In this document: piece by piece, positions 10,653 to 23,458 of the stretch | Layout of the letters: every line of letters starts with the position of its first letter | Position numbering within the stretch: position 1 is the first letter of the stretch | NCBI RefSeq assembly: GCF_011801145.1 | Contig: NZ_CP046172.1 | Span: 1,550,001-1,614,000 of the forward strand | Origin: Nocardia arthritidis | Lineage (GTDB): Bacteria > Actinomycetota > Actinomycetes > Mycobacteriales > Mycobacteriaceae | Length of the DNA stretch: 64,000 nucleotides | Direction of reading: 5' to 3' | Notes under the pieces: model-generated | Told to the model about the DNA's origin: nothing | Seen by the model: the letters and a program-made list of their open reading frames with translations, nothing else | The model's database searches: none | Program-made: the position numbers and the translations under genes

Positions 10653-11810
10653 ATGGCGGGAAATCCGGATTTCGACCTGTTCAAACTCGAGGACTTCCAC
10701 GAGGAACTGCGCGCGGCCATCCGCGGCCTGGCGGAGAAGGAAATCGCACCGCACGCCAAGGACGTCGACGGCAACTCCCGCTTCCCGGAGGAGGCGCTCA
10801 CCGCGCTCAACGCCGCGGGCTTCAACGCGGTGCACGTGCCCGAGGCATACGGCGGCCAGGGCGCCGACTCGGTCGCCACCTGCATCGTGATCGAGGAGGT
10901 CGCCCGGGTCTGCGGTTCGTCCTCGCTGATCCCGGCGGTCAACAAGCTCGGCACCATGGGCCTGATCCTCAACGGCTCCGAGGAGCTCAAGCAGAAGGTG
11001 CTGCCGGATATCGTCGAGGGGCAGATGGCCTCCTACGCGCTGTCCGAGCGCGAGGCCGGCTCCGATGCGGCCAGCATGCGCACCCGGGCCAAGCAGGAGG
11101 GTGACGACTGGATCATCAACGGCTCCAAGTGCTGGATCACCAACGGCGGCAAGTCTTCCTGGTACACCGTCATGGCCGTGACCGATGCGGACAAGGGCGC
11201 CAACGGTATTTCGGCGTTCCTGGTCCACAAGGACGACGAGGGCTTCGTGGTCGGCCCGCTGGAACACAAGCTCGGCATCAAGGGATCGCCAACGGCCGAA
11301 CTGTATTTCGAGAACTGCCGGGTGCCGGGTGACCGGATCATCGGCGAGCCGGGCACCGGTTTCAAGACCGCGCTGCAGACCCTGGACCACACCCGCCCGA
11401 CCATCGGCGCGCAGGCGGTCGGCCTGGCGCAGGGCGCGCTGGACGCGGCCATCGCATATACCAAGGACCGCAAGCAGTTCGGCAAGTCCATCGCCGACTT
11501 CCAGAACACCCAGTTCATGCTCGCCGATATGGCGATGAAGGTCGAGGCCGCCCGCCTGATGGTGTACACCTCGGCCGCGCGCGCCGAGCGTGGTGAAAAG
11601 AACCTCGGCTTCATCTCCGCTGCCGCAAAGTGTTTCGCCTCCGACGTGGCCATGGAGGTCACCACCAACGCGGTGCAGCTGTTCGGCGGCGCGGGCTACA
11701 CCACCGACTTCCCGGTGGAGCGGATGATGCGCGACGCCAAGATCACCCAGATCTACGAGGGCACCAACCAGATCCAGCGCGTGGTGATGTCGCGGGCGCT
11801 GCTGCGCTGA
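10653..11810 (+). CDS. fadE25: Acyl-CoA dehydrogenase FadE25
   Basis: A 385-aa FAD-dependent acyl-CoA dehydrogenase performing the first step of beta-oxidation. Motifs: YALSEREAGSDAASM and WITNGGKS for flavin/substrate binding, RKQFGKSIADFQ, and the C-terminal QIYEGTNQIQRVVMSRALLR with the catalytic base E369. A GGAG ribosome site precedes ATG 10653. The last 24 codons lie in a 72-bp sequence duplicated at 23387–23458: the gene's 3' end is the attachment site of the integrated element and stays functional because the element carries an identical copy. Its natural terminator now lies beyond the element at 23497. Confidence 0.95.
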   Translation: MAGNPDFDLFKLEDFHEELRAAIRGLAEKEIAPHAKDVDGNSRFPEEALTALNAAGFNAVHVPEAYGGQGADSVATCIVIEEVARVCGSSSLIPAVNKLGTMGLILNGSEELKQKVLPDIVEGQMASYALSEREAGSDAASMRTRAKQEGDDWIINGSKCWITNGGKSSWYTVMAVTDADKGANGISAFLVHKDDEGFVVGPLEHKLGIKGSPTAELYFENCRVPGDRIIGEPGTGFKTALQTLDHTRPTIGAQAVGLAQGALDAAIAYTKDRKQFGKSIADFQNTQFMLADMAMKVEAARLMVYTSAARAERGEKNLGFISAAAKCFASDVAMEVTTNAVQLFGGAGYTTDFPVERMMRDAKITQIYEGTNQIQRVVMSRALLR

Positions 11811-11811
11811 G
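11740..11811 (+). other. Left attachment site (core overlaps fadE25 3' end)
   Basis: A 72-bp core identical to 23387–23458. It starts at the second base of fadE25 codon 363 and ends one base after the TGA, so it encodes the catalytic-glutamate motif YEGTNQIQR. The int stop codon begins two bases beyond it. Confidence 0.92.
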
Positions 11812-11812
11812 G

Positions 11813-13120
11813 TCAAGCGCTGTTTTTCTCGATCGGAGGATGTTCGGGCACCGCTTGTTGGCTCTCGTCAGGCCGTCTCCAGGCCGTCAGGGACTCAGGC
11901 CGTCGCTCGAACATCCTCTGAATCGCCGCACGGGCACGTTGGTAGCTGGACGGGACCAGGTGCGTATAAGTGCGCAGCGTGAACCCCGGATCCCAGTGAC
12001 CGAGATATTCGGCGAGTTCCTTGATCGAGCAGCCGTCCGCGAGCAGACGCGACGCGAACAGGTGCCGCAGTGCGTGCATGCCGTCGGCGCGCTTACGGTA
12101 CTCCAACCCTGCGGTACGAAATGCTTTCTGCCACACGACTTTTGTGAACAGATCCCCGGTATAGACACGGCCATTCTCACCGGTTATCAACAGCAGAACC
12201 GTCACCGATTCACCGTCAGGCTTCCCCCATGGCAGCGTCACCGGGACCGCCGGATACGCGTTCCCGTGGCCATCGATCGAATCCAAGAGATCATCGGCTA
12301 CGGGCACCTCGCGAGTCTTGCCGCCCTTCGGAAGCGCGAACATCATGATGCCCTTTACGGTCTTGATCTGCCGTTCAACCCTGATCACTTTCCTCTCGCG
12401 GTCAACATCATCGGGGGAGAAACCCAAAATCTCGCCCTGGCGAAGTCCAGCGCCACTACCGAGTTCGGCGGCAATCTGAAACCGATGACCGAGCCCAGTC
12501 ATCACCATGTGTAGCCGATCCTCGTGCCACACAACGATTTTCGGGCTGTTCGATGTCGGCCGCCGAATAGTCTTTGCCTTGCAAGGGTTCTGGCGAATTA
12601 CTCGATCCTCGACCGCAGCCTCACACACCGACGACACGATCGTGAACAACGCGGTCTTGTAGTTATCCGACAGACCCTGTTCGTCCAGCCAGCCAAGCCA
12701 ATCACGAATGGTCGACGGCTTCTCAATCTTCTTGAACGTCAGATCACCCAGCTTCGGATAAATCTGACGTTCGAGACGACTACGGAGGATCTCCCGAGTG
12801 GCTGGGTCCGGCGACTGACCCTTGTACCAGTTCTCGGCCTGTTGCCGAAACTTCTTGGTCGCCGCGCGCGGATCGACGTACTTGCCTTCGCGCTTGTCGG
12901 ATTCGACCTCAATGAGGAAGTTGTCAGCCTTCTTCTTCTCGCGGTCCCCGAACGACTTCGAACGCTCAACGCCATCCGGATCGATATAGCGAACCCGGTA
13001 GCGCAAACCACGGCCGTACAGCTCGGTCTTCTCCATCACCGGTTTACCGCGACCGTTGACGATAACCTTGCCATCCTCATCACGCTTCGGACGCCACCAC
13101 CGGTCATCGATGTGCGCCAT
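11813..13120 (-). CDS. int: Tyrosine site-specific integrase of the AICE
   Basis: A 435-aa tyrosine recombinase. An N-terminal SAM-like core-binding region (about 85–190) precedes the catalytic domain. The catalytic set is R227 (GLRQGE), H349 and R352 (HALR), H375 (LGHWDP) and the nucleophile Y385 (RTYTHL). It integrates and, with Xis, excises the element at the fadE25 core. Start ATG 13120 overlaps the xis stop as TGATG, so translation is coupled. The gene ends two bases from the attachment core, the usual AICE arrangement. The C-terminal ~40 residues are charged and also contain the three arm-like repeats in DNA. Confidence 0.95.
   Translation of the reverse strand: MAHIDDRWWRPKRDEDGKVIVNGRGKPVMEKTELYGRGLRYRVRYIDPDGVERSKSFGDREKKKADNFLIEVESDKREGKYVDPRAATKKFRQQAENWYKGQSPDPATREILRSRLERQIYPKLGDLTFKKIEKPSTIRDWLGWLDEQGLSDNYKTALFTIVSSVCEAAVEDRVIRQNPCKAKTIRRPTSNSPKIVVWHEDRLHMVMTGLGHRFQIAAELGSGAGLRQGEILGFSPDDVDRERKVIRVERQIKTVKGIMMFALPKGGKTREVPVADDLLDSIDGHGNAYPAVPVTLPWGKPDGESVTVLLLITGENGRVYTGDLFTKVVWQKAFRTAGLEYRKRADGMHALRHLFASRLLADGCSIKELAEYLGHWDPGFTLRTYTHLVPSSYQRARAAIQRMFERRPESLTAWRRPDESQQAVPEHPPIEKNSA
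11869..11904 (+). promoter_or_regulatory. Putative integrase/Xis arm sites, left end
   Basis: Three copies of CAGGCCGTC at 11869–11877, 11880–11888 and 11896–11904. The first two are 11 bp apart, about one helical turn. The same pair, CAGGCCGTCTnCAGGCCGTC, recurs at 23263–23282 near the right end. These sites lie within the int 3' coding region, 57 bp from the core. Confidence 0.6.
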
Positions 13121-13308
13121 CAGGCAGCCTCATCGGCTTGATCAGCCCACGCGCGCACCTTGACCGGGTTGTACCGCAGGTGACGCCCCATCTTCCGAAC
13201 CGGTGGTCCCTCACCCAACCACTTCCACTGGTAGAGCGTTTTCACCGGCACGCCGAGGAAGTACGAGACTTCCTCCACAGTCCACAGTCGATCATCCGGT
13301 AGTTCCAT
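13120..13308 (-). CDS. xis: Excisionase (HTH_17/MerR-like), Xis
   Basis: A 62-aa DNA-binding protein of the AlpA/Xis type. The single winged-HTH reads LWTVEEVSYFLGVPVKTLYQ followed by a RKMGRHLRYNP wing. ATG 13308 has a strong GGGGAGG ribosome site; upstream in-frame codons overlap rep and are not used. It is translated between rep and int, with a TGATG overlap into int. It should bend the att region and steer the integrase toward excision. Confidence 0.9.
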   Translation of the reverse strand: MELPDDRLWTVEEVSYFLGVPVKTLYQWKWLGEGPPVRKMGRHLRYNPVKVRAWADQADEAA

Positions 13309-13316
13309 TGCCTCCC

Positions 13317-15002
13317 CTATGCCGCTTTCTCTATTGCCGAATGTTCTTGTGTCCCTGGTGGACTGGCCGCGAGTAGCGCGTTGAGGTATTCGGCGCGGTC
13401 GCGTGTTCGTTGAGCGATGGCGGCCGTGATCAGGTGTTCGCGAGGCGGGCAATGCTGGTCTCCGGGTTCGACCGGCGTGATCCGCAGGTGTGTGGTGTCG
13501 GGTTTGCTGATGCCGACCGCTGCGAGGAGTTGCCGAACGAATTCGGTGCGGTCGGCGCGATGGTCGGGCAGGGTCTTGCCGGTCCAGCGGCGCGAGACCA
13601 GCACGCGACGACCGGGCAGGCCGAGGGTGTCTCGGCGGTGTGCCTTACCGCGGCAGCGACCCGGGATCGTTTTCGCGGTCGCGCCTTTGGGGACGATGCC
13701 GTAGCGCAGCCACACCCCGCAGCGGGGCGAACACGGCGTGTGGCACAGTTCGGCGTGTAGCCGGTCGTAGTGTTCGGCGGCGCGAACCGATTGCGGTTCA
13801 ACGATTTCCGCGATCGACTTGGTCAGGTATTTGGTGACGTAGCGGATGGCCTTGTCGGCCTGCTCGCCAGCGATGACGCCCCGGATGTGGCGGGGATCGA
13901 TCTGGACGCCGAAGCGGACCTCATGTGCGGGTTCCAGGACGTCGACCGCGTCCATGGCATCGAGGGCGGCGTCCCAGCCGGTCAACGGGCGGTGCGTGCG
14001 GGGATCGACGAACGTGCCCACTTTCTCGTCCCAGACCGGCATGTTGGCGCTGGTGTAGACCTCGTGGTCGAAGTGTGGCCACCACACTTGGTGGTAGGTG
14101 GCTTCGGTGACCTTGACGACCAGTTCCCGGGGCAGATCGGTGCGGATCAGCACATGCAGGTGCGGGGCGCCGCGACGCTGCGGTTCGACCACCGCGAAGT
14201 ACTGGAGATCACGGCCGACCGCGCGGCGCATGTTCTGAATCCACCGGTCGAACAATCGGCCGACGTGAACGATGTCGCGGGCGGCACGGGTGTAGTCGTA
14301 GTCCTGCGGTCGGCACGGTGAACCGTCCGAACACACCTTGCCGTCAGCGTCGCGGGCGCCATCGCGGTTGATCCGCCCGTAGGACGGCATGGTCAAGGTG
14401 ATCAACATGCCGGGACGGTGGCCGCCCGCATAGGCGTCGCGGATCGTGTTGCGTGACACCGTCTTTCGTGGCAGGTCCGGAACATCCTGGCGACGGCGCG
14501 TCGAACGGGTCCGGCGCTTGCGCGGTCGAGGTTCCAGCGGCGGCAACGGACCGCGCACCCCGGTCTCGCGCAATTCAGCGTCGATGTCCTGAATCACCTC
14601 GACGAAACCGGCGGCGAGTTCTTCGTCCCCGGCTGCCGTGGCCTTGTGGTAGCCGTCGACGAGATCGGCTCGGGCGGTGAGCAATTCACGTTGCCACTCA
14701 GACGGTTCCCGCTTCTCCTGCACCGGTTCGTGATCGAGATGCCAGCCCTCGCGGCATTGGGTCATCCGCACGTAGCGGGCTTGCGCGGCGCACGCCGGGC
14801 ACACCGAGGCGATCGTGGACTTGCACGGCGTCGCGATGTAGGACACGGTCCAGGTTTTCGGGTCTTCCACCCGCATCGGGACCGGCCGCTTGCACACCCC
14901 GAACTTCTCGGCCGTAGTTTGGGCGATCTCCAGGAACGACGGCTTGGCGCGACGGTCGGCCGCCGTCTCCCGAACAGGCTTGCCGCTCTGCGGGTCGGTC
15001 AC
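13317..15002 (-). CDS. repSA: Replication initiator protein (RepSA/RepAM-type, HUH endonuclease-like)
   Basis: A 561-aa protein from GTG 15002, preceded by GGGAGG at 6 nt. An N-terminal zinc-ribbon-like stretch carries CPACAAQARYVRMTQC. The central HUH-type motif is RRGAPHLHVLIR (about residue 280), and the tyrosine/lysine motif RYVTKYLTKS lies near 390. These match rolling-circle initiators of actinobacterial integrative elements, which nick a double-strand origin to replicate the excised circle. The gene overlaps the upstream 120-aa gene as GTGA. It ends 8 bp before xis. Confidence 0.88.
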   Translation of the reverse strand: MTDPQSGKPVRETAADRRAKPSFLEIAQTTAEKFGVCKRPVPMRVEDPKTWTVSYIATPCKSTIASVCPACAAQARYVRMTQCREGWHLDHEPVQEKREPSEWQRELLTARADLVDGYHKATAAGDEELAAGFVEVIQDIDAELRETGVRGPLPPLEPRPRKRRTRSTRRRQDVPDLPRKTVSRNTIRDAYAGGHRPGMLITLTMPSYGRINRDGARDADGKVCSDGSPCRPQDYDYTRAARDIVHVGRLFDRWIQNMRRAVGRDLQYFAVVEPQRRGAPHLHVLIRTDLPRELVVKVTEATYHQVWWPHFDHEVYTSANMPVWDEKVGTFVDPRTHRPLTGWDAALDAMDAVDVLEPAHEVRFGVQIDPRHIRGVIAGEQADKAIRYVTKYLTKSIAEIVEPQSVRAAEHYDRLHAELCHTPCSPRCGVWLRYGIVPKGATAKTIPGRCRGKAHRRDTLGLPGRRVLVSRRWTGKTLPDHRADRTEFVRQLLAAVGISKPDTTHLRITPVEPGDQHCPPREHLITAAIAQRTRDRAEYLNALLAASPPGTQEHSAIEKAA

Positions 15003-15361
15003 GCGGTACCTCCCTCGGTGAACGGATCTGGTTGGTAGAACAGCAGTTCCACCGTTGCCGGGCCGACGAGCGTTGCGTGGCAGCGGGTTGCGCCGAACGC
15101 TGCCGCGAGTCGGGTGGTGCGGTTTTCCCAGTCGGCGGGGCACTGGCCCGGCAGCATGCCGACGAGCACGCGGTCGATGCCGTCGCCGATCTCAATGCGC
15201 AGCCGGGGTGGGATCATGCGGGTCTCGGCCGGGCCGATGGTGAGGTGGCAGGTGGTGAGCTGGCGGGTCCAGCGGCGGCCGTAGCGCCACCACCCGATCA
15301 GCCGGGTACGCGGCCAGCGGGTCAGCCACTGGTCGGCGGTGGTGGTGGTCGAGGTGTTCAC
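14999..15361 (-). CDS. 120-aa protein resembling the pre-ATPase region of TraB/FtsK transfer proteins
   Basis: A small protein with RWPRTRLIGWWRYGRRW near the N-terminus and GDGIDRVLVGMLPGQCPADW, then LAAAFGATRCHA. This pattern of a basic WWRYGRRW segment and a GQCPADW…LAAAFG domain is what I know from the region just before the ATPase domain of many actinobacterial TraB/FtsK transfer proteins. Here it stands alone. The actual TraB at 16765–18036 has its own version (LMLAGQRRKDW…IANILGVPKV). It may be a split-off or duplicated regulatory domain. ATGA overlap with the methylase upstream and GTGA overlap with rep downstream. Confidence 0.6.
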   Translation of the reverse strand: MNTSTTTTADQWLTRWPRTRLIGWWRYGRRWTRQLTTCHLTIGPAETRMIPPRLRIEIGDGIDRVLVGMLPGQCPADWENRTTRLAAAFGATRCHATLVGPATVELLFYQPDPFTEGGTA

Positions 15362-16053
15362 GCGGCCCTCTCCATGGTGGTGTCGAAGAGGGTGAGTTGT
15401 TCACCGGTCGGGTCGGTGAGGTGTGTAAGTAGTTGCTGGCCAATGTGTTCGGTGTAGGCGGGTGGGATCGCTTGGCACAGTTCGTCACCGGTCATCCAGT
15501 CGATGCCCATCGCGGCCGGACCGACGTAGCGGCCCACGTCCCCGGTGACCGAGATGTTCCAGCCCTGCGCCCAGCGTTCCCGACGCCGTCGTGTCGCGGT
15601 CGGCACATCATGCCGTGGATGCGTCGGCGCCCGTAACGGAACACGGGACTCGAAACGGCGATGCCGATAGGTGCGTAGCCCGAACATGGCGCCGCACAAG
15701 GTGATCGACCGCGTCCGTGCCAGCGGGGCGGACATGACGTTCTCGATGACGTAGGGGCGTCCGGAGATGTCGAGCGAGACCCGGACCGCGGCGATCAGGT
15801 CCGGGTATGTCCGGTCCGGGGAAAGCGCGCGCAGCGGGCTGTACGCCTGACAGGGTGGGGAGGCGTGTACCGCGTCGAACTCGTGACCGTGTTCGGTGAG
15901 GAATTCGATCGCGTCGGCGCGGTGGAACTCGAAGGGGTAGTTCGGTTGTGGCTCGATATCGACGCCAACGACATCGAATCCCGCGGCGTGGTAGCCCATC
16001 GCGGCGCCACCAGCCTTGCAGCATAAGTCGAGCAGTCGCGGCCTGCGGCTCAT
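15358..16053 (-). CDS. C5-cytosine DNA methyltransferase-like protein
   Basis: A 231-aa SAM-dependent methylase. It has a DLCCKAGGAAMGY SAM-binding loop, VVGVDIEPQPNYPF, the catalytic ASPPCQAYSPL with the PCQ cysteine, and IENVMSAPL, the ENV motif of C5-methylases. It lacks a large target-recognition region, like the short methylases of actinophages. The likely role is modification of the element's DNA to avoid host restriction; no cognate nuclease is nearby. ATG 16053 overlaps the upstream gene's stop as TGATG (GTG 16056 is also possible), and the stop overlaps the next start as ATGA. Confidence 0.75.
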   Translation of the reverse strand: MSRRPRLLDLCCKAGGAAMGYHAAGFDVVGVDIEPQPNYPFEFHRADAIEFLTEHGHEFDAVHASPPCQAYSPLRALSPDRTYPDLIAAVRVSLDISGRPYVIENVMSAPLARTRSITLCGAMFGLRTYRHRRFESRVPLRAPTHPRHDVPTATRRRRERWAQGWNISVTGDVGRYVGPAAMGIDWMTGDELCQAIPPAYTEHIGQQLLTHLTDPTGEQLTLFDTTMERAA

Positions 16054-16436
16054 CACTTCCTCCGAACCGGTGTCTCGAACAACGCCAACTGGTTGTCATC
16101 GGCGCGTTTACGGCGCGGGCGGGGCTTGGTCGCCGCGGCGGCCACGATCGGGTTGATCCGCCGCGCCGGGGCGGCCGGGCGGGCGACCTTGAGGCGGGCG
16201 TCGGTGTCGACGAGGCGGGAGAATCGGGAGTTGGGTGGTTGCGGCACCAGCTCCCAGCCCTCCGGGGTGTGCCGGGCCGAATCGGCCGGCGTGTGCCGAG
16301 CCTGCGCCAGCTGGAAGGCGCCACCGCGGATCGGCCGGTCGTTGATCTCATACAGCAGGTCACCGGGGCGGACCTGGTTCGGTGCGATCAGATAGAAGTG
16401 CAGCGTCTCCACCGGCTGCGCGGGATCGGTGGTCAT
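16053..16436 (-). CDS. Hypothetical AICE protein (127 aa)
   Basis: Not recognised. From ATG 16436 the product begins MTTDPAQPVETLHFYLIAPN, followed by QVRPGDLLYEINDRPI, a beta-strand-rich stretch that could be a small fold binding ligand or nucleic acid. The C-terminal half is basic and Ala/Pro/Arg-rich (KPRPRRKRADDNQ), consistent with nucleic-acid contact. It overlaps the zinc-ribbon gene upstream (ATGA) and the methylase downstream (TGATG), so it is translated as part of the transfer/replication operon. Confidence 0.65.
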   Translation of the reverse strand: MTTDPAQPVETLHFYLIAPNQVRPGDLLYEINDRPIRGGAFQLAQARHTPADSARHTPEGWELVPQPPNSRFSRLVDTDARLKVARPAAPARRINPIVAAAATKPRPRRKRADDNQLALFETPVRRK

Positions 16437-16768
16437 GGTTGGGTTTCCACCTCGTAGATCCCGCAGTGTTCGCAGTGGCGCCGCGACAGGGAATGGCGGA
16501 CGCCGTCGCGGAACCAATGCGTCCACGACCAGCCCGACCATTCGTGACCGTTCGCGGCGCAGTGCGCGGCGGCGAGGCAGCCGTCGCAGGTGAGCGTCGC
16601 GCCGTCGAATTCCCAACCCGTGGACAGGGTTTCGTCAGCGAAGTAGGCGGCGGCTTCCTCGGCGGTGCGGAACAGCGCGGGACCGATCTCACCATCGGCG
16701 GGATACGGGTCGCCGCAGCCGTGGCAGTAGGCCACGATGAATGTCTCGGCCACGAATCCGGTCTTCAT
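16433..16768 (-). CDS. Zinc-ribbon-like hypothetical protein (111 aa)
   Basis: Not assigned to a family. Three CxxC pairs are spread through the chain: YCHGCGDPYP, TCDGCLAAAHC and HCEHCGIYE. This indicates one or two zinc sites. The tryptophan-rich centre GHEWSGWSWTHWF is unusual. ATG 16768 overlaps the TraB stop (ATGA), and its own stop overlaps the next start. Small Cys-rich proteins are common in actinobacterial mobile elements, often of unknown role. Confidence 0.65.
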   Translation of the reverse strand: MKTGFVAETFIVAYCHGCGDPYPADGEIGPALFRTAEEAAAYFADETLSTGWEFDGATLTCDGCLAAAHCAANGHEWSGWSWTHWFRDGVRHSLSRRHCEHCGIYEVETQP

Positions 16769-18036
16769 GCCACTCGCCCCCGCTCCGGGAAATCGGCGAG
16801 GTTGATCGGACGCGGACGCGGCCGGAACCGTTCGGCGATCCGTGCCATATCCTCGGGTGTCACCTGGTAGACGCGGGCGCGGCGGAAACCGGCGGTGCCG
16901 TCCTCCTGCACGTAGCAGACTCCTGGTGTGGTGTGCGGGATCTCGTCGCAGCGTGAACCGCGGTCGCGGGCGCCGTGGCCGTGGATCATGGCGACCTGGG
17001 TTGGTTCGGCCATCCGCAGCCCGATCCGGTAGGGCAGCAATTGGCGTTGGGGCACATTGTCTTTCGACGGATCGATCACCGTTTCGATGACCGAGAACAG
17101 CGGCGCCCGCCCCTGGGACAGCAACAGGCCATGCGCGCGTGCGTAGCGGGCCATCAGCTGTGGGTCGGTGAACGCCGCAAGCGTGGCCGCCTCATCGATG
17201 ATCGTGACGACCAGCGGGTTGTCCGGTGTCGGGATCGGTTTGTCGGTCCCCGCGGCGCGGTAGCCGAGGGCGGCTTCCTGCATGTCGGTGACCGTCTCCT
17301 CCAACAACCCGATCATCAATTCCGGTGTGGTGCATTCGAATCGGGTGCACAGCTGCTCCAGCCAACCCAAGCCCATGCCGCCCTTCGGGTCGATCACGCG
17401 CAGTTCCACCCGTCCGGACGCGATCGCTGGACCCATGCCGTTGACCAGGGCGCCGAGGAAACCGGTTTTGCCTGAACCCATTTCGCCGCCGACCAGGACA
17501 TGGCGCCCTTGCACGGGGACGGTCCAGTCGGTGCCGTCTTCGAAGATTCCGGTGGGTACGGCTGTGAGGTCCACGTCATCGGGGACCACCGTCGGCAACG
17601 CTGCCGAGGTAGCGAGGGTGTCGAATACCCGCACCTCCAACCGCATCCACCCCGGCGACGGCACGACCGCCGTCACCTTCGGCACACCGAGGATGTTCGC
17701 GATCGCATCCAAGGTGTCCTCGCTGGCCCAGTCCTTACGCCGCTGACCTGCCAGCATCAGGAAATCCACGTCCAGTCCGTGCGGGGTGTAGGCGTAGGCA
17801 TCCAGGACCGGGAAACCCTTCTCCACCGACCCGAGCCCGACCGCGGACAGCATCAGGTCCGTTTGCACCGGGTCGGCCAGCACGAACACCGCCGTCCACA
17901 GCTCCACCGGAGCCGCGGCCACGATGGACTCGACAGCGACCAGGTCAGGTTCACGAAACTTCAGGCAGGACAACGCGATCGGTGTGATGAGCCCGGTCAC
18001 GGCGCCAGCCGCCAGCATGGTGGGCAGGATCGACAT
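16765..18036 (-). CDS. traB: TraB/FtsK-type conjugative DNA translocase
   Basis: A 423-aa ATPase from ATG 18036 (GGAGG at 7 nt). An N-terminal hydrophobic stretch (about residues 1–20) suggests membrane anchoring. A small domain with LMLAGQRRKDW is followed by the RecA-like motor: Walker A GGEMGSGKTGFLGAL (near 195) and Walker B LVVTIIDEAATLAAF. Such proteins form hexamers that pump double-stranded DNA between mycelial cells, the single-protein conjugation typical of AICEs. No clear C-terminal winged-helix gamma-like domain could be identified by eye. Both gene ends overlap their neighbours. Confidence 0.9.
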   Translation of the reverse strand: MSILPTMLAAGAVTGLITPIALSCLKFREPDLVAVESIVAAAPVELWTAVFVLADPVQTDLMLSAVGLGSVEKGFPVLDAYAYTPHGLDVDFLMLAGQRRKDWASEDTLDAIANILGVPKVTAVVPSPGWMRLEVRVFDTLATSAALPTVVPDDVDLTAVPTGIFEDGTDWTVPVQGRHVLVGGEMGSGKTGFLGALVNGMGPAIASGRVELRVIDPKGGMGLGWLEQLCTRFECTTPELMIGLLEETVTDMQEAALGYRAAGTDKPIPTPDNPLVVTIIDEAATLAAFTDPQLMARYARAHGLLLSQGRAPLFSVIETVIDPSKDNVPQRQLLPYRIGLRMAEPTQVAMIHGHGARDRGSRCDEIPHTTPGVCYVQEDGTAGFRRARVYQVTPEDMARIAERFRPRPRPINLADFPERGRVA

Positions 18037-18260
18037 CACACCACCTCCATCAGTGGAGCCAGGGCCAGGGCGATGCTGTGTTCGGCCAGCACGTTCGGCA
18101 GCACTTCGGCGAGCGTGCGGGCATCCGTGAGGGATAGCCGGATCTCGTTGTCGCCCACCAGGAACGACACCAGTGCGGAGGTTTCGACCGGCCGGAATCG
18201 GGACGCGGCAACGTATTTCACGTTCCGCAGCCCACCGCCGAGGACAGGGTTCGTGGGCAT
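18036..18260 (-). CDS. Small hypothetical protein (74 aa), paralogue of 19394–19633
   Basis: Not recognised by family name. It reads VSFLVGDNEIRLSLTDARTL followed by AEVLPNVLAEH. This aligns over its core with the 80-aa protein encoded at 19394–19633 (VSFFLGATRIVLDIGDAHDL then SEALPNVLAQH). The two are paralogues inside one operon. The pattern, two beta strands then an amphipathic helix, suggests a small domain that may dimerise. TGATG overlaps connect it to both neighbours. Confidence 0.65.
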   Translation of the reverse strand: MPTNPVLGGGLRNVKYVAASRFRPVETSALVSFLVGDNEIRLSLTDARTLAEVLPNVLAEHSIALALAPLMEVV

Positions 18261-18580
18261 CAGTGATCACCCTTCCAACCTGGTTCGACGCAGAACATCA
18301 GGCACTGACCGAGCTTTGGCGGTGCGGGAGTAGGTGTCGGCATGACCGGCGGGCAATTGGCTACGCAGTCCACCCCGGCATAGGACGGGACAGGCCCCGG
18401 CGCCGGATCGCAGAACATCACGCAGCCGCCAGCGTGGACGCTCGTGAGATGAGCGACCGGGCGCGGCGTGCGATCGGTCGTCAGCATCAGCACGCCGGTC
18501 GTGACGGCGAATATCGGGACCGCGACCAAGGCGGCGATAGCGGGTTTGCGGGACGGGACAGGAGTCATTGGGATAGGCAT
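18260..18580 (-). CDS. Small membrane/secreted protein with three Cys motifs (106 aa)
   Basis: An N-terminal hydrophobic helix (AIAALVAVPIFAVTTGVLML, about residues 14–33) is followed by a Pro-rich exported tail with three similar cysteine motifs: GGCVMFCDPAPG, VDCVANCPPV and GQCLMFCVEPG. Each is CxxxC, probably disulfide-bonded outside the cell. No family recognised. Its TGATG junction into the 74-aa gene is normal, but the upstream DUF2637-like frame runs over it out of phase, see that entry. The coherent anchor-plus-motif architecture argues that this is the real frame here. Confidence 0.6.
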   Translation of the reverse strand: MPIPMTPVPSRKPAIAALVAVPIFAVTTGVLMLTTDRTPRPVAHLTSVHAGGCVMFCDPAPGPVPSYAGVDCVANCPPVMPTPTPAPPKLGQCLMFCVEPGWKGDH

Positions 18581-19394
18581 CAGGCACCCCGAGGGCGGGC
18601 ATTGCGAGCGGCAGCATGGCCTGCACGGGCCGCTCAGGACGAACAGGATGAACCGGGGCAGCAGTGGGCGCGGTGACGCGGGGTTGCGCGGTCCGCTCCA
18701 CCACCGGTTTGGGCGCGTACTTCGCGGCCGTGGTGGCCGAGATATTCAGCGCCGCAGCGATTTCGGTGTAGGTGGCACCTTCGGCGCGCATCGCGACCGC
18801 ACGCGCTATCAGGCTCGGGTCACGCCGAGGCGTCCGCCGCTTCACCGGCACGGGCACCGGAACCGCGGCCGGTTCGGGCACCGGACCAGTGTCCGGAACC
18901 GGTTCGGGTGCAACGGTTTCCGGTACGTCGTCGTCTCGGCTGATCATGTGGGCCAGGGTCGCGCCCATTCCCAAAACGGTCGGTGGGATGCAGGCGACCA
19001 GCACGACGACCGGCCACGGCGCGGTAGACCAATGTGCGGCCTGCATCAGGTGATAGGCCACCTGCCCGACACCACCGAGGGCCAGCGCGCCCAGCGCGGA
19101 CCATTTGGCGTAGCCACGGGTTCCGGCCGAGCGAATGCGGCCGTTGAGCCACACGTGCAGGGCGTAGGAGGCGTAGGTTTCCATCCCGATCGGCAGCGTC
19201 ACCGCCGTATTGATCGAGAACTGATCCCAGATCCCCGGCAGTGGTTGCACCGGCCCGAACCCGGTCATCTTGCCCAGGCCGACCCAGCCGGACCAGATCG
19301 CGACGAACGCCGGAAGCGCCAGCAACAGCACAGGCCACGAGCGAATACGCTTGTCCGCCTTACCATTCTGGCCCAGCTTGGATCGGCCGAACAT
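18267..19394 (-). CDS. DUF2637-like membrane protein with C-terminal HTH, probable 3' frameshift
   Basis: Three hydrophobic helices (about 19–40, 95–113, 124–150), a Pro/Val-rich linker, then an HTH-like segment, MRAEGATYTEIAAALNISA (about 205–225). This is the layout of DUF2637/Spd-like transfer-associated proteins. From ATG 19394 the open frame continues to 18267, but its last ~100 residues are Arg/His-rich and antiphase to the 106-aa gene. Adding one G to the CCCC run at 18587–18590 (GGGG in the gene) would end the protein at a TGA forming TGATG with ATG 18580, exactly like every other junction here. So the intended protein is probably ~271 aa. Confidence 0.7.
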   Translation of the reverse strand: MFGRSKLGQNGKADKRIRSWPVLLLALPAFVAIWSGWVGLGKMTGFGPVQPLPGIWDQFSINTAVTLPIGMETYASYALHVWLNGRIRSAGTRGYAKWSALGALALGGVGQVAYHLMQAAHWSTAPWPVVVLVACIPPTVLGMGATLAHMISRDDDVPETVAPEPVPDTGPVPEPAAVPVPVPVKRRTPRRDPSLIARAVAMRAEGATYTEIAAALNISATTAAKYAPKPVVERTAQPRVTAPTAAPVHPVRPERPVQAMLPLAMPALGVPDAYPNDSCPVPQTRYRRLGRGPDIRRHDRRADADDRSHAAPGRSSHERPRWRLRDVLRSGAGACPVLCRGGLRSQLPAGHADTYSRTAKARSVPDVLRRTRLEG

Positions 19395-19633
19395 CACGCC
19401 ACCGACCTCGATTCGTCGGACAGGAACTCGGCGTAGTCGTGCTGGGCCAGCACATTCGGCAACGCTTCCGAAAGATCGTGTGCGTCACCGATATCCAGCA
19501 CGATCCGAGTCGCACCGAGAAAGAACGAAACCTGCGGCGGAAGCGCAGAACCCAAGCGGCCCTTGCGGTTCGGCTCATACTTCAAACCGTGCAGCTCTCC
19601 ACCCACGGTCGGGATGTTCACGAACGACGACAT
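19394..19633 (-). CDS. Small hypothetical protein (79 aa), paralogue of 18036–18260
   Basis: Starts at ATG 19633 in a TGATG overlap with the pra-like gene and ends in another TGATG overlap at 19394. The core, VSFFLGATRIVLDIGDAHDL plus SEALPNVLAQH, aligns with the 74-aa protein five hundred bases away after two intervening genes. An LKYE motif precedes it, as LRNVKYV does in the paralogue. Function unknown; a small dimerising domain or regulator is possible. Confidence 0.65.
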   Translation of the reverse strand: MSSFVNIPTVGGELHGLKYEPNRKGRLGSALPPQVSFFLGATRIVLDIGDAHDLSEALPNVLAQHDYAEFLSDESRSVA

Positions 19634-20100
19634 CACGCAGCCGCCTTCCCATTACGCGGCGCCGCAGCCGAATGATCCCCAGGCGCAACCGATCCCGACT
19701 TGTCGCCCTTGAACCCGGTCGCGCGGACCGTCCAACCGATCGACTTGAACTCCCCCGAACCGATCAGCCTCGGCTTGACCATCAACCCCTCCAGCTCAAC
19801 CGGCGTCACGCCCGGAGCGATCTCCACCGCCGGAGGAACCGGGCACGTATCCGCCACGAAAATCACGTCGTAGCTGGTGTGCTTGGCATTGGTCTCAGCT
19901 CCCGAGGGATCAGTGATGGTGGCCTTCCACAGGCGCTTTCCGGTGCCCTTCCCCTCGTAGTCGAGGTCAACCTTCTGAATCGCCGGGGTGTTCCGATCAC
20001 GCTGGAACTCCGTCACCGGCTGAACACTCCCGAACAGGTACGTGCCCTTCGGGAAAAACTCACTCGCCTCAGCCCGCAACCACACATTGCTCGAAGGCAT
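19633..20100 (-). CDS. pra: Pra-like activator of replication, integration and excision
   Basis: A 155-aa protein from ATG 20100 (AAGGAG at 6 nt). It matches the layout of pSAM2-type Pra proteins: FFPKGTYLFGSVQPVTEF, QKVDLDYEGKGTGKRLWKA, then DTCPVPP…VTPVELEGLMVKPR and IGWTVRATGF. In pSAM2, Pra positively controls the rep–xis–int operon. Here it is the first gene of the 13-gene minus-strand operon and faces a divergent HTH gene across a 191-bp region full of TAAACTC-type sites. The C-terminus is a short basic/Ala tail. Confidence 0.78.
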   Translation of the reverse strand: MPSSNVWLRAEASEFFPKGTYLFGSVQPVTEFQRDRNTPAIQKVDLDYEGKGTGKRLWKATITDPSGAETNAKHTSYDVIFVADTCPVPPAVEIAPGVTPVELEGLMVKPRLIGSGEFKSIGWTVRATGFKGDKSGSVAPGDHSAAAPRNGKAAA

Positions 20101-20179
20101 CCTGAACTCCTTGTCTTCATTGAGGTTTCGATTCATTCGGCACGTTTGCGCCGACTTGTGCCCGAAGTCCATTCGGAGA

Positions 20180-20285
20180 TTTAGCCCCCCTAAACTCCGT
20201 TGGGTCATCGAACCAAGAAATGTTTAGAGGGTATAAACTCAAGGGTACGCCCGCCGCGTGCCGAGAGTCAAGACCCTCTAAACTC
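20180..20285. promoter_or_regulatory. Operator cluster between divergent AICE operons
   Basis: TAAACTC occurs three times in direct orientation (20191–20197, 20234–20240, 20279–20285; steps of 43 and 45 bp). Inverted partners give TTTAG–CCCCCC–CTAAA at 20180–20194 and a perfect 10-bp inverted repeat, TTTAGAGGGT (20223–20232) with ACCCTCTAAA (20273–20282). The last copy coincides with a TAAACT −10-like box 7 nt before GTG 20292. A repressor binding here could silence both the pra operon and the HTH gene. The likeliest ligand is the adjacent HTH protein (inference). Confidence 0.6.
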
Positions 20286-20291
20286 GAATCT

Positions 20292-21131
20292 GTGGCTGAC
20301 GTTGATGACTTTGAGCAGGTCCGGAACGACCCGGACCCAATCCGACGTGGCCAGCGAGCAACCGACTTGATGACCGTCTATCAGCAGCGCGCCACGGAAC
20401 TCGCTCGCCTGCGCAAAGCGGCGATCGAAGAGGCTCATCGTGTACGAGGTATGAGCTATACAGAGATCGCTGAGCAGTTGGGGCTTACGAAGGGGCGGAT
20501 CAGTCAGATTCGAACTACAGCGCCACGGCCGGAGCGCGCCTTCTTCGGCGTCGGACCGGTGGCTATAGGGATTCCGCGGCGCTTCGGCTTCGAGGAAGGC
20601 CGGGAACGTCCGTTCTTCGATGCCAATGATCAGGCCACCCAGGAATCGATCGAAGCCATACTCACCCGATTGTCATTGACCACCAACCGTTTTGCGATCG
20701 ACCCTGATCGTGAGGACATGCCGTCCGGAGATGCGGTCATCATCTGCGGCCCCAAGTCTGCCCCGATCGCGCGTCGGCTATTGGAACGAGATCCGATCTT
20801 GAATTTCGAACGGACCGACGAAGGATGGTGGATTACCGACGCCAGTACCGGCCAACGGCATCAATCGCCCTATCGCCGGGACGACGTGACGCGCACCGAC
20901 ATCGGCTACTTCTCCCGACGCGTTGAAGACAATCGCGTTCTTGTGCATATAGCTGGCATTATGAGCGTTGGCTCTCATGGCGTGGCACAGTGGCTCGACC
21001 GCCATCTACCCGAGGTCTATGACGAGTCAGCGACCTTTGTGAGTGGAATCATCGAGTGCGACTTCACCGCGGACTTCGCTGTGACGGACAGTCGCCTGTT
21101 GGTCGGCCCTTACGCCACCGCCCTGGTATGA
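20292..21131 (+). CDS. Sigma-70-region-4-like HTH protein with unknown C-terminal domain
   Basis: About 279 aa from GTG 20292, which follows TAAACT by 7 nt; the longer frame from 20220 would include the operators. A basic helix, then HTH VRGMSYTEIAEQLGLTKGRI and SQIRTTAPRPERAFFG (about 75–110). The C-terminal half is a distinct domain with SGDAVIICGPKSAPIARRLL, GWWITDASTG, RVLVHIAGIMSVGSHGVAQW and VSGIIECDF; it looks like an alpha/beta ligand-binding or sensor domain I cannot name. It overlaps the phosphatase gene by ATGA. Base composition is visibly less GC-rich than the chromosome. Confidence 0.75.
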   Translation: MADVDDFEQVRNDPDPIRRGQRATDLMTVYQQRATELARLRKAAIEEAHRVRGMSYTEIAEQLGLTKGRISQIRTTAPRPERAFFGVGPVAIGIPRRFGFEEGRERPFFDANDQATQESIEAILTRLSLTTNRFAIDPDREDMPSGDAVIICGPKSAPIARRLLERDPILNFERTDEGWWITDASTGQRHQSPYRRDDVTRTDIGYFSRRVEDNRVLVHIAGIMSVGSHGVAQWLDRHLPEVYDESATFVSGIIECDFTADFAVTDSRLLVGPYATALV

Positions 21132-21919
21132 AAATCGCTGTTGCCCGTCTCCCGATGCGATCAGGCGACGACCGCGTATTCACCACTGATAGGGGAGCGA
21201 TAATCCTTGATGGTGCAACGTCATTCGATCCCGACGTTCCATCCGCCAGTGAATATGTTGACGTTCTCGGAGCAGAACTACTTCGGCGGCTCGATGGGGC
21301 TGACGACTTAGAGACCATACTCGCCGACGCCATCTCGACGACGGCACGTCGACTCAAGCTCGACTGCGGTTCAGCGCCATCGAGTACGGTCGCGCTAGTG
21401 CGCATCGGCAATGACGCAATAGACGTTCTAGTACTTGGTGATTCATCCGTCGTAGTAGGTCGAAATGATCAGTCGTATCGGGTCGTCACGGATGAACGCC
21501 TTGCCGGGTTGAACCTGCCGGAAACGGATCAGTACCGAGCACGTCTGAAGTCCGGCGGCGGCTATGACGAAACCCATCGAGCTTTACTACGCGCCCTTCA
21601 GAATCGCCAACGCGGTCGACGCAATCATGACGGCGGCTATTGGATCGCGGAGGCCGATCCTGGAGCAGCGAAACATGCATTCCGTCAACGCTTTTCGGTC
21701 GACGAGACCAGCTGGATCGTGATGGCTACCGATGGTGTGTCTAATCTACTTGCCCCGCTAAAGGTTTCATGGCCCGAGGTTGCGCAACTTGACGACGATA
21801 ACCTTGCGCGCCTTCTCGCATGGTGTCACGAATGGGAAGCAGTCACAGACCCCAACGGGCAGCAACAACCGCGCGCGAAACGACATGACGACAAGGCGCT
21901 TGCTGTCATCCGGCTCTAG
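21128..21919 (+). CDS. PP2C-type protein phosphatase
   Basis: A 263-aa metal-dependent phosphatase from ATG 21128. PP2C motifs are in order: ILDGATSF (first metal aspartate), SSTVALVRIGNDAIDVLVLG with GDSSVVV, VMATDGVSNL and the final HDDKALAVIRL. The metal-binding aspartates are therefore kept, and activity on phospho-Ser/Thr is expected. No membrane or sensor segment is attached. Translationally coupled to the upstream HTH gene (ATGA overlap), so the two are a functional unit, perhaps a phospho-regulated switch for the element. No kinase is encoded in the element. Confidence 0.8.
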   Translation: MKIAVARLPMRSGDDRVFTTDRGAIILDGATSFDPDVPSASEYVDVLGAELLRRLDGADDLETILADAISTTARRLKLDCGSAPSSTVALVRIGNDAIDVLVLGDSSVVVGRNDQSYRVVTDERLAGLNLPETDQYRARLKSGGGYDETHRALLRALQNRQRGRRNHDGGYWIAEADPGAAKHAFRQRFSVDETSWIVMATDGVSNLLAPLKVSWPEVAQLDDDNLARLLAWCHEWEAVTDPNGQQQPRAKRHDDKALAVIRL

Positions 21920-22002
21920 GTCAGCACCCCGATTTCTGTAGCGCCCTATCACCATCCGCGACTCGTTGCCGAATTTGGCCATACAGGATCAAGAGCGGCG
22001 GC

Positions 22003-22095
22003 CCTGGCGGGCCGCCGCCGCGCGTGCGCCGCGCGGCGCAGTTTCCTACGCACGCTCCGGACTGCGGCGCGTCGGCGCGTCGGCGGCCCGCCAGG
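22003..22095. repeat. 15-bp perfect inverted repeat, long GC-rich hairpin
   Basis: CCTGGCGGGCCGCCG (22003–22017) and its exact complement at 22081–22095 enclose 63 bp that is itself GC-rich and partly self-complementary. It lies 84 bp after the phosphatase stop. It could terminate that operon or serve as a replication or transfer structure of the element. Confidence 0.6.
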
Positions 22096-22107
22096 ACATG
22101 CCGACTT

Positions 22108-22385
22108 CCGGTCGAGGCGATTGACGGCACTGATCATCTGGCGGTGGTGGCGGTCGCAGCCCCGAAGTCGCCCCGCCCGGTGACGTGGCTGGTGTCGTCG
22201 TCGTAGCCGCAGCGGTAGTGGGACAGGTCGCCGCCGGTCCCGGTCGGCCCCTCCGGTCCGCGTGTTCAGGTGGCCCCAGGCGTAGACGCCCTGGCAGTGC
22301 CCGCAGGCCAGGAAGCCCGGAATCGGCCCCTTGGTTGCGTTCTGCCGCAGGTGGGGTTGCTGCCCCGAATTCCGTTGCCGGTCAC
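22108..22385 (-). pseudogene. Degenerate inverted copy of the zinc-ribbon gene at 22558
   Basis: Read on the minus strand from a GTG at 22385, this region keeps stretches of the 113-aa neighbour: SNPTC, CQGVYAWGHLNT, a DLSHYRCGYDDDTSH equivalent and CDRHHRQMIS. They are joined by scrambled or out-of-frame sequence, so no intact product is possible. The shared 5' flank (AGATCACCGCGACAGGGAGA, present in both copies) shows that the duplication includes the promoter/RBS region. Confidence 0.8.
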
Positions 22386-22850
22386 CAAGGTTCCTCTCCC
22401 TGTCGCGGTGATCTGCCGAAGGCGTACCACACCACCGGGGTACTCCAAAGGGCGCTTCGCGTCACTTCGTGATGGGCATTCGCCCACCCTTTTCCGCACC
22501 CCGGCGGCGTGGTCCGGGCTGAGCCCAGATCACCGCGACAGGGAGAGGAACCCCGAAATGACCAGCACCTACGGCATCCGATGCAGCAACCCCACCTGCG
22601 ACAGCATCGATACCACCGACATCGAGGGCGCTGACTTCCCGCTCTGCGAGAACTGCCAGGGCGTCTACGCCTGGGGCCACCTGAACACGCTCGTCTCCCT
22701 CGGCCGCTTCGAAACCGCCTGCGACCTGTCCCACTACCGCTGCGGCTACGACGACGACACCAGCCACGCCACCTACTACCCGCAGTGGCAGCTCCAGCTC
22801 TGCGACCGCCACCACCGCCAGATGATCAGCACCGTCAACCTCCTCGACCT
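22108..22850. repeat. Large imperfect inverted repeat carrying gene and pseudogene
   Basis: Arms about 22108–22445 and 22500–22850 share the 5' flank and most of the coding sequence of the zinc-ribbon gene in opposite orientation, around a ~50-bp centre. Identity is patchy: near-perfect blocks alternate with diverged ones. This gap between the phosphatase and 22558 therefore holds a duplicated, decayed gene rather than a new one. Confidence 0.75.
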
Positions 22851-22899
22851 CGACATCCAGGCCTTCGAACAGGGCCAGCTGAACTTGTCCGACCTCTAG
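22558..22899 (+). CDS. Zinc-ribbon-like hypothetical protein (113 aa)
   Basis: ATG 22558, with GGGAGAGGAA upstream. Cysteine/histidine pairs suggest zinc binding: RCSNPTCDS, LCENCQGVYAWGH, then CGYDDDTSH and CDRHHRQM. No family recognised. It is the intact copy of an inverted duplication; the other copy (22108–22385, minus strand) is decayed. It lies at the right end of the element, away from the main operon, with hairpins following its stop. Confidence 0.65.
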   Translation: MTSTYGIRCSNPTCDSIDTTDIEGADFPLCENCQGVYAWGHLNTLVSLGRFETACDLSHYRCGYDDDTSHATYYPQWQLQLCDRHHRQMISTVNLLDLDIQAFEQGQLNLSDL

Positions 22900-22931
22900 G
22901 CCGGAGGCACCGGGCAACGAGGCCCGGCAGC

Positions 22932-22953
22932 GAGCCGACAACGCCGTCGGCTC
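22932..22953. terminator. Hairpin after the zinc-ribbon gene
   Basis: GAGCCGAC (22932–22939) and GTCGGCTC (22946–22953), a perfect 8-bp stem with a 6-nt loop, 33 bp after the stop codon. No T-run follows. Confidence 0.5.
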
Positions 22954-22970
22954 CCAGCCTCCTACTGGAC

Positions 22971-23011
22971 GTGCCCGCACAGCCACATTCCTCTCCCGGC
23001 TGTGCGGGCAC
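22971..23011. repeat. 14-bp perfect inverted repeat
   Basis: GTGCCCGCACAGCC (22971–22984) and GGCTGTGCGGGCAC (22998–23011) with a 13-nt loop. No T-run follows. It could be a terminator or part of the element's structured right end. Confidence 0.55.
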
Positions 23012-23083
23012 TCCGGTTGCTACGCAACACCTTTCAGCGGACGACTGCCGAATCCCTCTATATAGGTATTGAATACAGCTTCT

Positions 23084-23222
23084 CCCTGCTTCCTCATTGC
23101 CCGATTGTCTCGCTCCACTCGGACGAGTCAAGGGCGCTCCTTCGTCGCGTCGCTACGCGATGCCTACGGCACCCTTGACACGCCCTCCCTCCGCTGAGGG
23201 CGGCAAGTATGAGGAAGCAGGG
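23084..23222. other. Nested multi-stem structure near attR (candidate sso/clt or ncRNA)
   Basis: A perfect 14-bp outer stem (23084–23097 with 23209–23222) encloses an 8-bp stem (23127–23134/23172–23179) with an inner TCGCGT–CGCT–ACGCGA hairpin (23145–23160), and a separate 7-bp hairpin (23181–23187/23196–23202). No plausible coding frame covers it. The AT-rich CTATATAG lies just upstream. Nested foldback DNA of this kind is expected of single-strand origins or cis-acting transfer loci; a structured RNA is the alternative. Confidence 0.45.
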
Positions 23223-23262
23223 ATGGAAGTAGGTGGCGGATAGGCGATCTATCCGCGCGAGC

Positions 23263-23282
23263 CAGGCCGTCTACAGGCCGTC
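23263..23282 (+). promoter_or_regulatory. Putative integrase/Xis arm sites, right end
   Basis: Two CAGGCCGTC copies at 23263–23271 and 23274–23282, 11 bp apart. The 20-bp pair differs at one base from 11869–11888 inside the left end. It lies 104 bp from the core at 23387. Confidence 0.6.
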
Positions 23283-23386
23283 GCATGCCCGAAACGGCTC
23301 AGAACGGCCGAGAAGTAGCGAGTCGAATACGGGCAGGTGGCACCAGCTTTCGGCGGCATCCGGCCAGCTCGACCGAAAACCTTGAG

Positions 23387-23458
23387 AGATCACCCAGATC
23401 TACGAGGGCACCAACCAGATCCAGCGCGTGGTGATGTCGCGGGCGCTGCTGCGCTGAG
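23387..23458 (+). other. Right attachment site (fadE25 3'-end copy)
   Basis: Seventy-two bases identical to 11740–11811, including the TGA stop of fadE25. It has no upstream gene, so it is a remnant of the split attB. What follows is the chromosomal flank that used to adjoin fadE25. Confidence 0.92.

Follow-up and report, generated by a model that had tools for sequence, protein, structure and literature searches.

An integrative element in the 3' end of fadE25

The window analysed here, 64,000 nt of the Nocardia arthritidis contig NZ_CP046172.1 (positions 1,550,001 to 1,614,000), contains an 11.6-kb element that is inserted at the 3' end of fadE25, a gene for an acyl-CoA dehydrogenase (ACAD), and is bounded by two copies of a direct repeat. 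The element itself is a real actinomycete integrative and conjugative element (AICE) of ordinary build, and its target family is new and coherent. Integration very probably proceeds by recombination of attP with the 3' part of an ACAD gene, carried out by the element's tyrosine integrase. The gene plan between the repeats is that of an AICE, with an integrase gene at one end, flanking att repeats, a RepSA-type initiator, a single FtsK/SpoIIIE-type protein and a xis-like gene beside int.

As an earlier note on this DNA had claimed, the two repeat copies (11740-11811 and 23387-23458; start-to-start spacing 11,647 bp) are identical in 72 of 72 nt. A chance origin is ruled out. A sequence search of the 10.01-Mb single-contig host genome (G000 in our genome set) gave no third full copy; the only other matches were two short ones in ACAD paralogues (32 bp at 97% and 41 bp at 85%). 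The repeat runs from base 2 of fadE25 codon 363 to one base past the stop codon and includes Glu369 of the YEGT motif, also as claimed. We take E369 to be the catalytic base, by the residue numbering of SCAD (Glu368), MCAD (Glu376) and butyryl-CoA dehydrogenase (Glu367). The residue offsets of the fadE25 matches to 1jqi, 3mdd and 1buc in the match table agree with this numbering.

In the proposed route the integrase would recombine attP with the gene by strand exchange in CACCCAG (codons I364-Q366), and in the resulting attL the first 363 codons of the host would be continued by a tail from the element, complete with the catalytic Glu, by which the protein is restored. If the overlap is placed correctly, the Glu369 codon of the working gene is supplied by the element. 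The AGGCCGTC repeats on both arms would bind integrase, Xis and Int together would reverse the integration to give an 11,647-bp circle, and this circle would replicate via Rep and be transferred as double-stranded DNA via TraB. Such a target would work because few parts of the gene vary as little at the DNA level across many hosts as codons 363-375, and since the paralogues share the motif, a clade of integrases could shift between ACAD genes and stay harmless.

Attachment sites and crossover

We aligned 17 att pairs on codon I364; they come from three ACAD paralogues of the genus and, in two pairs, from related ACAD genes in two other families. The left edge of identity lies within 3 nt of this codon in all 17: in 16 pairs identity starts 0-3 nt to its left, and in G537 at the third base of the codon (index 2). 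The right end varies with the similarity of the two tails. When G147, G077 and G070 are left out, which show mismatches at indices 3, 8 and 23 and have broken integrases, all other pairs agree at every base between index 2 and index 34 or beyond, which places the exchange within 11744-11776 (~33 bp). The 72 bp that the earlier note had called a core are therefore the length of identity; the recombination core is bounded to ~33 bp and the rest is replacement tail.

Strand exchange probably takes place in the 7 bp at 11744-11750. The inverted repeat around this putative overlap is only moderately unusual, the fraction of gene positions that are at least as good with a 7-bp spacer being 0.026-0.056 for fadE25, 0.007-0.030 for a second and 0.001-0.044 for a third ACAD paralogue used by related integrases, with the three genes not independent of each other. 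The arm left of the far core is common to the far copies and reads mostly Y-G-A-G-A-G in the fadE25 and third-paralogue cases of the genus. The overlap sequence is CACCCAG in fadE25, CCTSGAC in the second paralogue and GATGCAG in the third paralogue of G000; in G116 and several empty genomes the third paralogue carries CACCCAG like fadE25.

Without any integration, a recent duplication of the gene end, tandem or segmental, could also have produced two perfectly identical copies. We rejected this explanation as extremely improbable on the strength of the 17 att pairs and the empty sites: the pairs share one left edge, each has an integrase or an integrase remnant beside its gene-side copy, the sites are single-copy in relatives, and the arm repeats lie at fixed distances.

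Empty sites and replacement of the gene end

Single-copy fadE25 loci, for which the earlier note had suggested a search, were found in relatives (G083 and G005), and the sister genome G082 carries an element. Right of the att core, G082 matches the empty G083, which represents a close species: the flank shows 97.8% identity over 1,011 bp, counted from its first base, and in the tail the displaced copy agrees with the native 3' end base for base. The far copy of G082 and the tail of G083 both encode ...RQLLR*, the gene-side tail of G082 ...RQLLKG*. The far side is thus that of G083 while the gene-side tail differs, which shows that integration swapped the last residues and that the displaced copy belongs to the host. 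In the window the tails encoded by the two copies are the same and do not discriminate between host and element origin. The claim that the protein is kept intact by an element-borne copy holds for the pair G082/G083; in the window the fadE25 tail right of the crossover would be element-derived and attR would be the displaced host 3' end. Right flanks at the second paralogue match empty loci in G122, G115, G128, G077 and G147 (G122 against L205, 92% over 1,110 bp), and that of G070 had no match among the empty second-paralogue loci. Both fadE25 and the second paralogue are present in 148 of 148 genomes.

Among the matches listed from a pattern scan of the 148 genomes (up to G099), two YEGT-type cores occur in G000, G028, G067, G063 and G062. 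G063 has kept a fadE25 att pair with a 30-aa integrase remnant and gave no int match in the genus search; the second copy of G062, whose left arm resembles the one in G063, is a stump located on a different contig, and int was not found. The earlier note had named a duplicate in strains without the element as evidence against integration. These two genomes touch on that point, being strictly duplicates without an intact element, and we read both as relics. Further YEGT-type matches are in G122 (a full ACAD paralogue), G615 (two stumps) and G786.

G615 has two fadE25-type 3' stumps (L237; C1:4679680 and 4680559) that are 879 bp apart and enclose a 46-aa int remnant; the int next to the intact fadE25-like gene of that genome is 1.67 Mb away. 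The stumps are scars either of lost elements or of a rearrangement. In G786 (L183, L193; C49:148087 and 149901) a full fadE25-like gene (62%) is followed 1.8 kb on by a 29-aa ACAD 3' stump, with no int match for this gene and stump, and a further fadE25 scar in the family of G786 is possible.

The element of the window could itself be a fixed relic that entered by the attP/ACAD route and can no longer excise or transfer, which we consider unlikely. Decay is frequent, with partial, split or stop-bearing integrases in G147, G070, G010, G067, G077 and G121 besides the remnant of G063, and excision in G000 is a prediction. However, the int, xis, rep and traB frames of G000 are open, its integrase has kept the conserved residues, both sides carry arm repeats and the att copies are still identical over their full length.

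Related integrases and their target genes

The search for int homologues beside ACAD genes that the earlier note had suggested revealed related integrases (E<=1e-30) in 23 of 150 same-genus genomes, and in 18 of the 23 the int 3' end converges on an ACAD 3' end. Eight of these use fadE25 (G000, G028, G082, G145, G110, G010, G067 and G121; 91-100% protein identity) and nine the second paralogue (G128, G122, G115, G101, G102, G147, G070, G107 and G077), which is 34-37% identical to fadE25 over the aligned part and adjoins another ACAD gene. One, G116, uses the third paralogue (44%).

In a family search of 401 genomes, the matches at 1e-50 numbered 7 and came without exception from the own genus, one of the 31 genera covered; a class search of 394 genomes gave 39 matches. 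Both searches scored only four candidates per genome. Four of the 29 new class loci that were fetched have an ACAD gene beside int: three in family f22 with a fadE25-like ACAD (64-66%), and one in f19 with a distant integrase (35%). Insertion linked to a tRNA gene was rejected, as no tRNA gene is present in the window or in the 29 class loci (~1.5 kb each side of int). The only find of a contig scan, a Streptosporangiaceae metagenome-assembled genome (L001) in which a 46-aa int match and the ACAD gene point the same way, was not counted because its layout differs. A 209-bp piece ending in the far copy matches plasmid-borne ACAD genes through the core part in 86 records, which belong to other actinobacteria and to proteobacteria.

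More distant integrases were also seen beside other protein-gene ends (L087, L090, L092, L094, L095, L103, L106 and L109), which we take, reading C-terminal motifs by eye, to be those of lpdA, gpmA, murA, glnA and a histidinol-phosphatase-like gene. They may belong to a wider integrase family whose speciality is the 3' end of protein genes. No direct repeats were detected for L125 and L126 (lpdA-like neighbour; G588) or for the integrases of G615 and G715 (L115, L116), and the non-ACAD targets of related integrases are leads only.

In G116 the third-paralogue att pair lies 162 kb apart on the same strand (C1:4613767-4775953; L189, L196, L231-L236, L118, L053, L032), and each end has arm repeats where they usually lie. 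The interval contains biosynthetic-looking open reading frames (ORFs), by eye from their N-termini a 1914-aa PKS-like protein, oxidoreductases and transporters; it gave no match to rep or traB of the window, and its right flank none to the other third-paralogue loci. It is either a very large island moved by the integrase or the result of a rearrangement. In G138 (L041, ~17620-17838) an orphan ACAD 3' fragment of another paralogue lies ~130 bp from a 44% integrase and outside any open gene, possibly as the scar of a further ACAD target.

Integrase phylogeny and target switching

A tree was built from 45 integrases, seven sequences shorter than 250 aa having been dropped beforehand. The 15 ACAD-linked integrases, 15/15 beside ACADs, form one clade (100/97) with paralogue switches inside it; the clade has several ACAD targets, of which fadE25 is one. 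The users of the second paralogue are a single clade (99/94), and G116 is nested with three fadE25 users (99/97). The integrase of G786 (35% identity, other family) sits on a long separate branch and has the same target class and the same left edge; with this integrase so far off in the tree, ACAD targeting either has two or more origins or goes back very far. We define the ACAD-targeting integrase group by att identity starting at ACAD codon I364, as in the 17 pairs.

From these data one may propose that an integrase lineage came to use a protein-family signature, the ACAD catalytic motif KI-x-x-I-[YF]-E-G-T at the DNA level, for attachment. With this DNA nearly invariant and common to the paralogues, and with a downstream tail that tolerates replacement, the lineage could switch paralogues, cross families and each time rebuild the enzyme with an element-borne catalytic Glu codon, a proposal for which we see the case as evenly balanced. 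The clade may instead have kept an inherited site without the motif as a driver, the paralogue differences being rare accidents; we regard this as a tentative but serious alternative. With the second-paralogue users in one clade, few switches are needed within 15 integrases, and other related integrases adjoin unrelated genes. The differing overlaps of fadE25 and the second paralogue mean that a switch needs a change of attP, and GATGCAG in the third paralogue of G000 means that this gene is no alternative site for the element of the window. The recurrence of target class and left edge in the distant G786 integrase speaks against a merely inherited site, as does the CACCCAG shared by fadE25 and the third paralogue in G116 and several empty genomes.

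Candidate arm-type repeats

After AGGCCGTC had been picked by eye, we counted AGGCCG[TC]C on both strands in 16 att pairs and found it 5.1 times per kb within 350 bp of the cores versus 0.16 times per kb inside. In 15 of 16 pairs the far core is preceded on its left, at a distance of 111-126 bp, by one or two copies. Right of the gene-side core, one to three copies, mostly 11 bp apart, are likewise present in 15 of 16, at a distance of 117-158 bp for fadE25 and the third paralogue and 188-233 bp for the second. These candidate sites fit the arm-type sites of a lambda-like integrase. The motif was not found beside the core or int of G786, which stands outside the 16-pair count; outgroup integrases show a motif pair near the 3' end in some cases (L088, L109) and none in most.

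Conservation of the site

Conservation was determined for 70 fadE25 genes from the 148 genomes, the 30 nearest by 3'-end similarity and 40 spread ones. Codons K363-Q375 (KITQIYEGTNQIQ) reach 0.970 compared to a gene mean of 0.895 and rank first among 373 13-codon DNA windows; in the 40-genome set alone the values are 0.960 and 0.887, again with rank 1 for 13 codons. For other lengths from codon 363 in the 70 genes, 7 codons rank 15/379, 10 rank 2/376 and 16 rank 38/370. The last 24 codons rank 272/362. The idea of a conserved catalytic segment as attB thus stands for codons 363-375 and fails for the repeat as a whole. Within the 13 codons third positions rank 5, the share of mostly two-fold residues ranks 2 and amino-acid identity 38, which indicates a large contribution of codon bias. 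In 56 of the 70 genes CACCCAG, the putative overlap, is exact.

Evidence against the proposed route

Several observations weigh against integration into ACAD genes as described. Five of the 23 related integrases (G058, G138, G134, G005 and G076; 41-52% identity) are without an intact ACAD neighbour, two of them near contig ends (G134 at 147 bp, G076 at ~1 kb), and two in-frame stops interrupt the int of G537 within the stretch that matched. The far copy was not found in 4 of the 18 genus cases, G102 and G107 at contig ends and G121 and G010 within ~37 kb on the element side. Outside chromosomes, plasmids gave only two Streptomyces integrases at 37-40% and phages none at E<=1e-20; the exact att core pattern occurs in 0 viral contigs, and a free attP was not found there.

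For G000, no alignment with relatives was obtained over the first ~400 bp beyond attR; among the fadE25 loci compared, the right flank matches only the downstream regions of G077, G012 and G147, at ~74% and starting at +398 or +555. The nearest relatives by fadE25 (G076, G011, G068 and G113) lack this flank. The exact right junction therefore rests on the repeat and the sister elements. Excision and a circular attP of G000 are predictions from sequence, and the overlap and the arm roles are assigned from the alignments. The arm enrichment is post hoc, as the motif came from few alignments, and the top conservation rank holds for the motif-fitting length of 13 codons, chosen after looking, and not for every length.

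Comparison with known systems

The phiC31 integrase is a serine integrase. Phages 21 and e14 integrate at icd, and for icd elements we know of one gene, one site and no spread over paralogues. As here, islands and phages at icd have an attP with a replacement 3' end of a metabolic dehydrogenase gene, and an element-borne replacement gene end is standard (PMC10111431). The HE-PICI integrase clade, which is directed at prophage late genes, resembles our case as one clade with a tropism for a gene class and motifs at fixed core spacing; it disrupts different late genes without replacement, whereas here homologous codons of paralogues are used and the gene end is rebuilt (PMC10111431). An ACAD gene of Streptomyces rimosus contains a phiC31 pseudo-attB and is thus also used by an integrase, but in that case a vector integrated at an off-target site and the gene was disrupted, unlike with the element of the window (PMC7890619).

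Tyrosine-integrase AICEs mostly reside in tRNA 3' ends, with the exception of the pSLS subfamily (PMC3218068). In a Streptomyces survey of functional ICEs and AICEs together, 36 insertion sites were tRNA genes, 14 protein-coding and 1 intergenic (PMC9513070). The statement of the earlier note that AICEs mostly insert in tRNA genes therefore names the rule, but the rarity of protein-coding sites it implied is not borne out by 14 against 36 (PMC9513070). The pSAM2-type AICEs of Streptomyces, Frankia and others are like the window's element in int-xis, RepSA-type Rep, FtsK/TraB, att repeats and insertion at a gene 3' end; their targets are mostly tRNA genes, those of the window's element and its sisters a set of ACAD genes (PMC3218068). 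The non-tRNA target also fits the pSLS integrase subfamily, compared by description only (PMC3218068). AICEs in rlmN and other protein-coding genes share the choice of a protein gene, and there a change of target is linked to a change of integrase (PMC9513070).

The word 'dehydrogenase' is absent from the main text of PMC3218068, whose Table S1 may still hold an ACAD target, and from the main text of PMC9513070 (site table S5 outside scope). No report of an ACAD gene as AICE target was found in open-access texts including PMC8190616 and PMC12884075, with supplementary site tables outside the search. Within that literature, and as far as it goes, a coherent integrase clade across paralogues of one enzyme family at one homologous codon is new. 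The clade bears on why elements choose protein genes and on how integrases change target: its targets, empty sites, arm repeats and likely overlaps are readable from sequence, so target switching is directly testable. Integrases with a predictable attB in ACAD-bearing genomes may be on offer, and annotation should expect orphan 'acyl-CoA dehydrogenase' stumps as attR scars.

Gene content of the element

Features of the fadE25 element, with positions in the window
Feature	Position	Strand	Basis
fadE25-type ACAD, 385 aa, target gene	10653..11810	+	Pfam Acyl-CoA_dh N/M/C; best solved match 3pfd_A 2.3e-212
Gene-side att repeat (attL), 72 bp	11740..11811	+	left edge common with 16 other att pairs
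7-bp overlap CACCCAG (putative strand-exchange region)	11744..11750	+	left edge of identity; 7-bp-spaced inverted repeat; counterpart 23391-23397
Glu369 codon GAG, YEGT motif, within att repeat	11757..11759	+	sequence
int, tyrosine recombinase, 435 aa	11813..13120	-	PF00589 Phage_integrase 4.5e-14; PHROG integrase 6.7e-42
Three AGGCCGTC repeats (11870, 11881, 11897), candidate P' arm-type sites	11870..11904	+	within int 3' end; similar positions in sisters
xis-like HTH_17 protein, 110 aa	13120..13452	-	PF12728 5.5e-8; PHROG excisionase/regulator 5.5e-8
RepSA-type replication initiator, 608 aa	13317..15143	-	PF20199 RepSA 2.4e-101
DNA methyltransferase-like protein, 232 aa, between rep and traB	15358..16056	-	PHROG 363 4e-39; PADLOC MTase_II 1.1e-7; no Pfam match
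TraB-like FtsK/SpoIIIE DNA translocase, 501 aa	16765..18270	-	PF01580 5.3e-8; homologues in sister elements
HTH-containing protein, 376 aa	18267..19397	-	PF13384 1.3e-4, under its cut-off; weak PHROG DNA-binding matches
191-aa protein, conserved in sister elements, possible 'pra'	19633..20208	-	no family match
Cargo: sigma-70 region 4/HTH protein	20220..21131	+	PF04545 1.4e-5; 73% homologue in G101 element
Cargo: PP2C-like phosphatase	21056..21919	+	PF13672 5.5e-6; 52% homologue in G101 element
Two AGGCCGTC repeats (23264, 23275), candidate P arm-type sites	23264..23282	+	123 and 112 bp left of far repeat
Far-side att repeat (attR)	23387..23458	+	host origin of such a copy in sister case G082/G083

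The int gene adjoins the gene-side att copy. Its residues R227, H349, R352, H375 and Y385, presumably the catalytic ones, are identical in 13 of 13 relatives compared, and the xis-like protein is the predicted excisionase beside int. Rep scores 28.1 bits against the NCBIfam RepSA equivalog with a cut-off of 700, and is therefore a relative of RepSA and not RepSA itself. No further transfer or secretion protein was matched among the subset of element ORFs that was run against the profile libraries.

A Pra/KorSA-like regulator is common but not universal in AICEs. Of the pra–traB–rep–xis–int set proposed in the earlier note, int, the xis-like gene, rep and the FtsK/TraB-like gene are supported by Pfam and PHROG, while pra is not: the protein at 19633-20208 had no match in Pfam, NCBIfam, PADLOC or PHROG, and the protein at 18267-19397, the other candidate for such a regulator, had only weak HTH matches. 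Homologues of the 191-aa protein (25-57%) are present in 9 of 39 loci searched, one of which (L125) is not ACAD-linked.

The G+C content is 0.576-0.580 at 12-13, 20-22 and 23-24 kb, the last including flank, and 0.64-0.69 in the remaining element; the left flank has 0.65-0.70 and the right flank 0.67-0.71. The HTH and PP2C-like genes overlap by 76 bp and occur as a pair also in the second-paralogue element of G101, so cargo seems to move between elements of different targets. At 22110-22849 a gene-sized stretch is present as two inverted copies, as if a small gene were folded back beside its own copy, with arms of 60 nt (95% complementary), 56 nt (91%), 34 nt (85%), 27 nt (100%) and 72 nt (81%). 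Right of the element, after 1.1 kb, a 4,801-aa open frame begins (24605-39010) that is NRPS-like by size and by eye.

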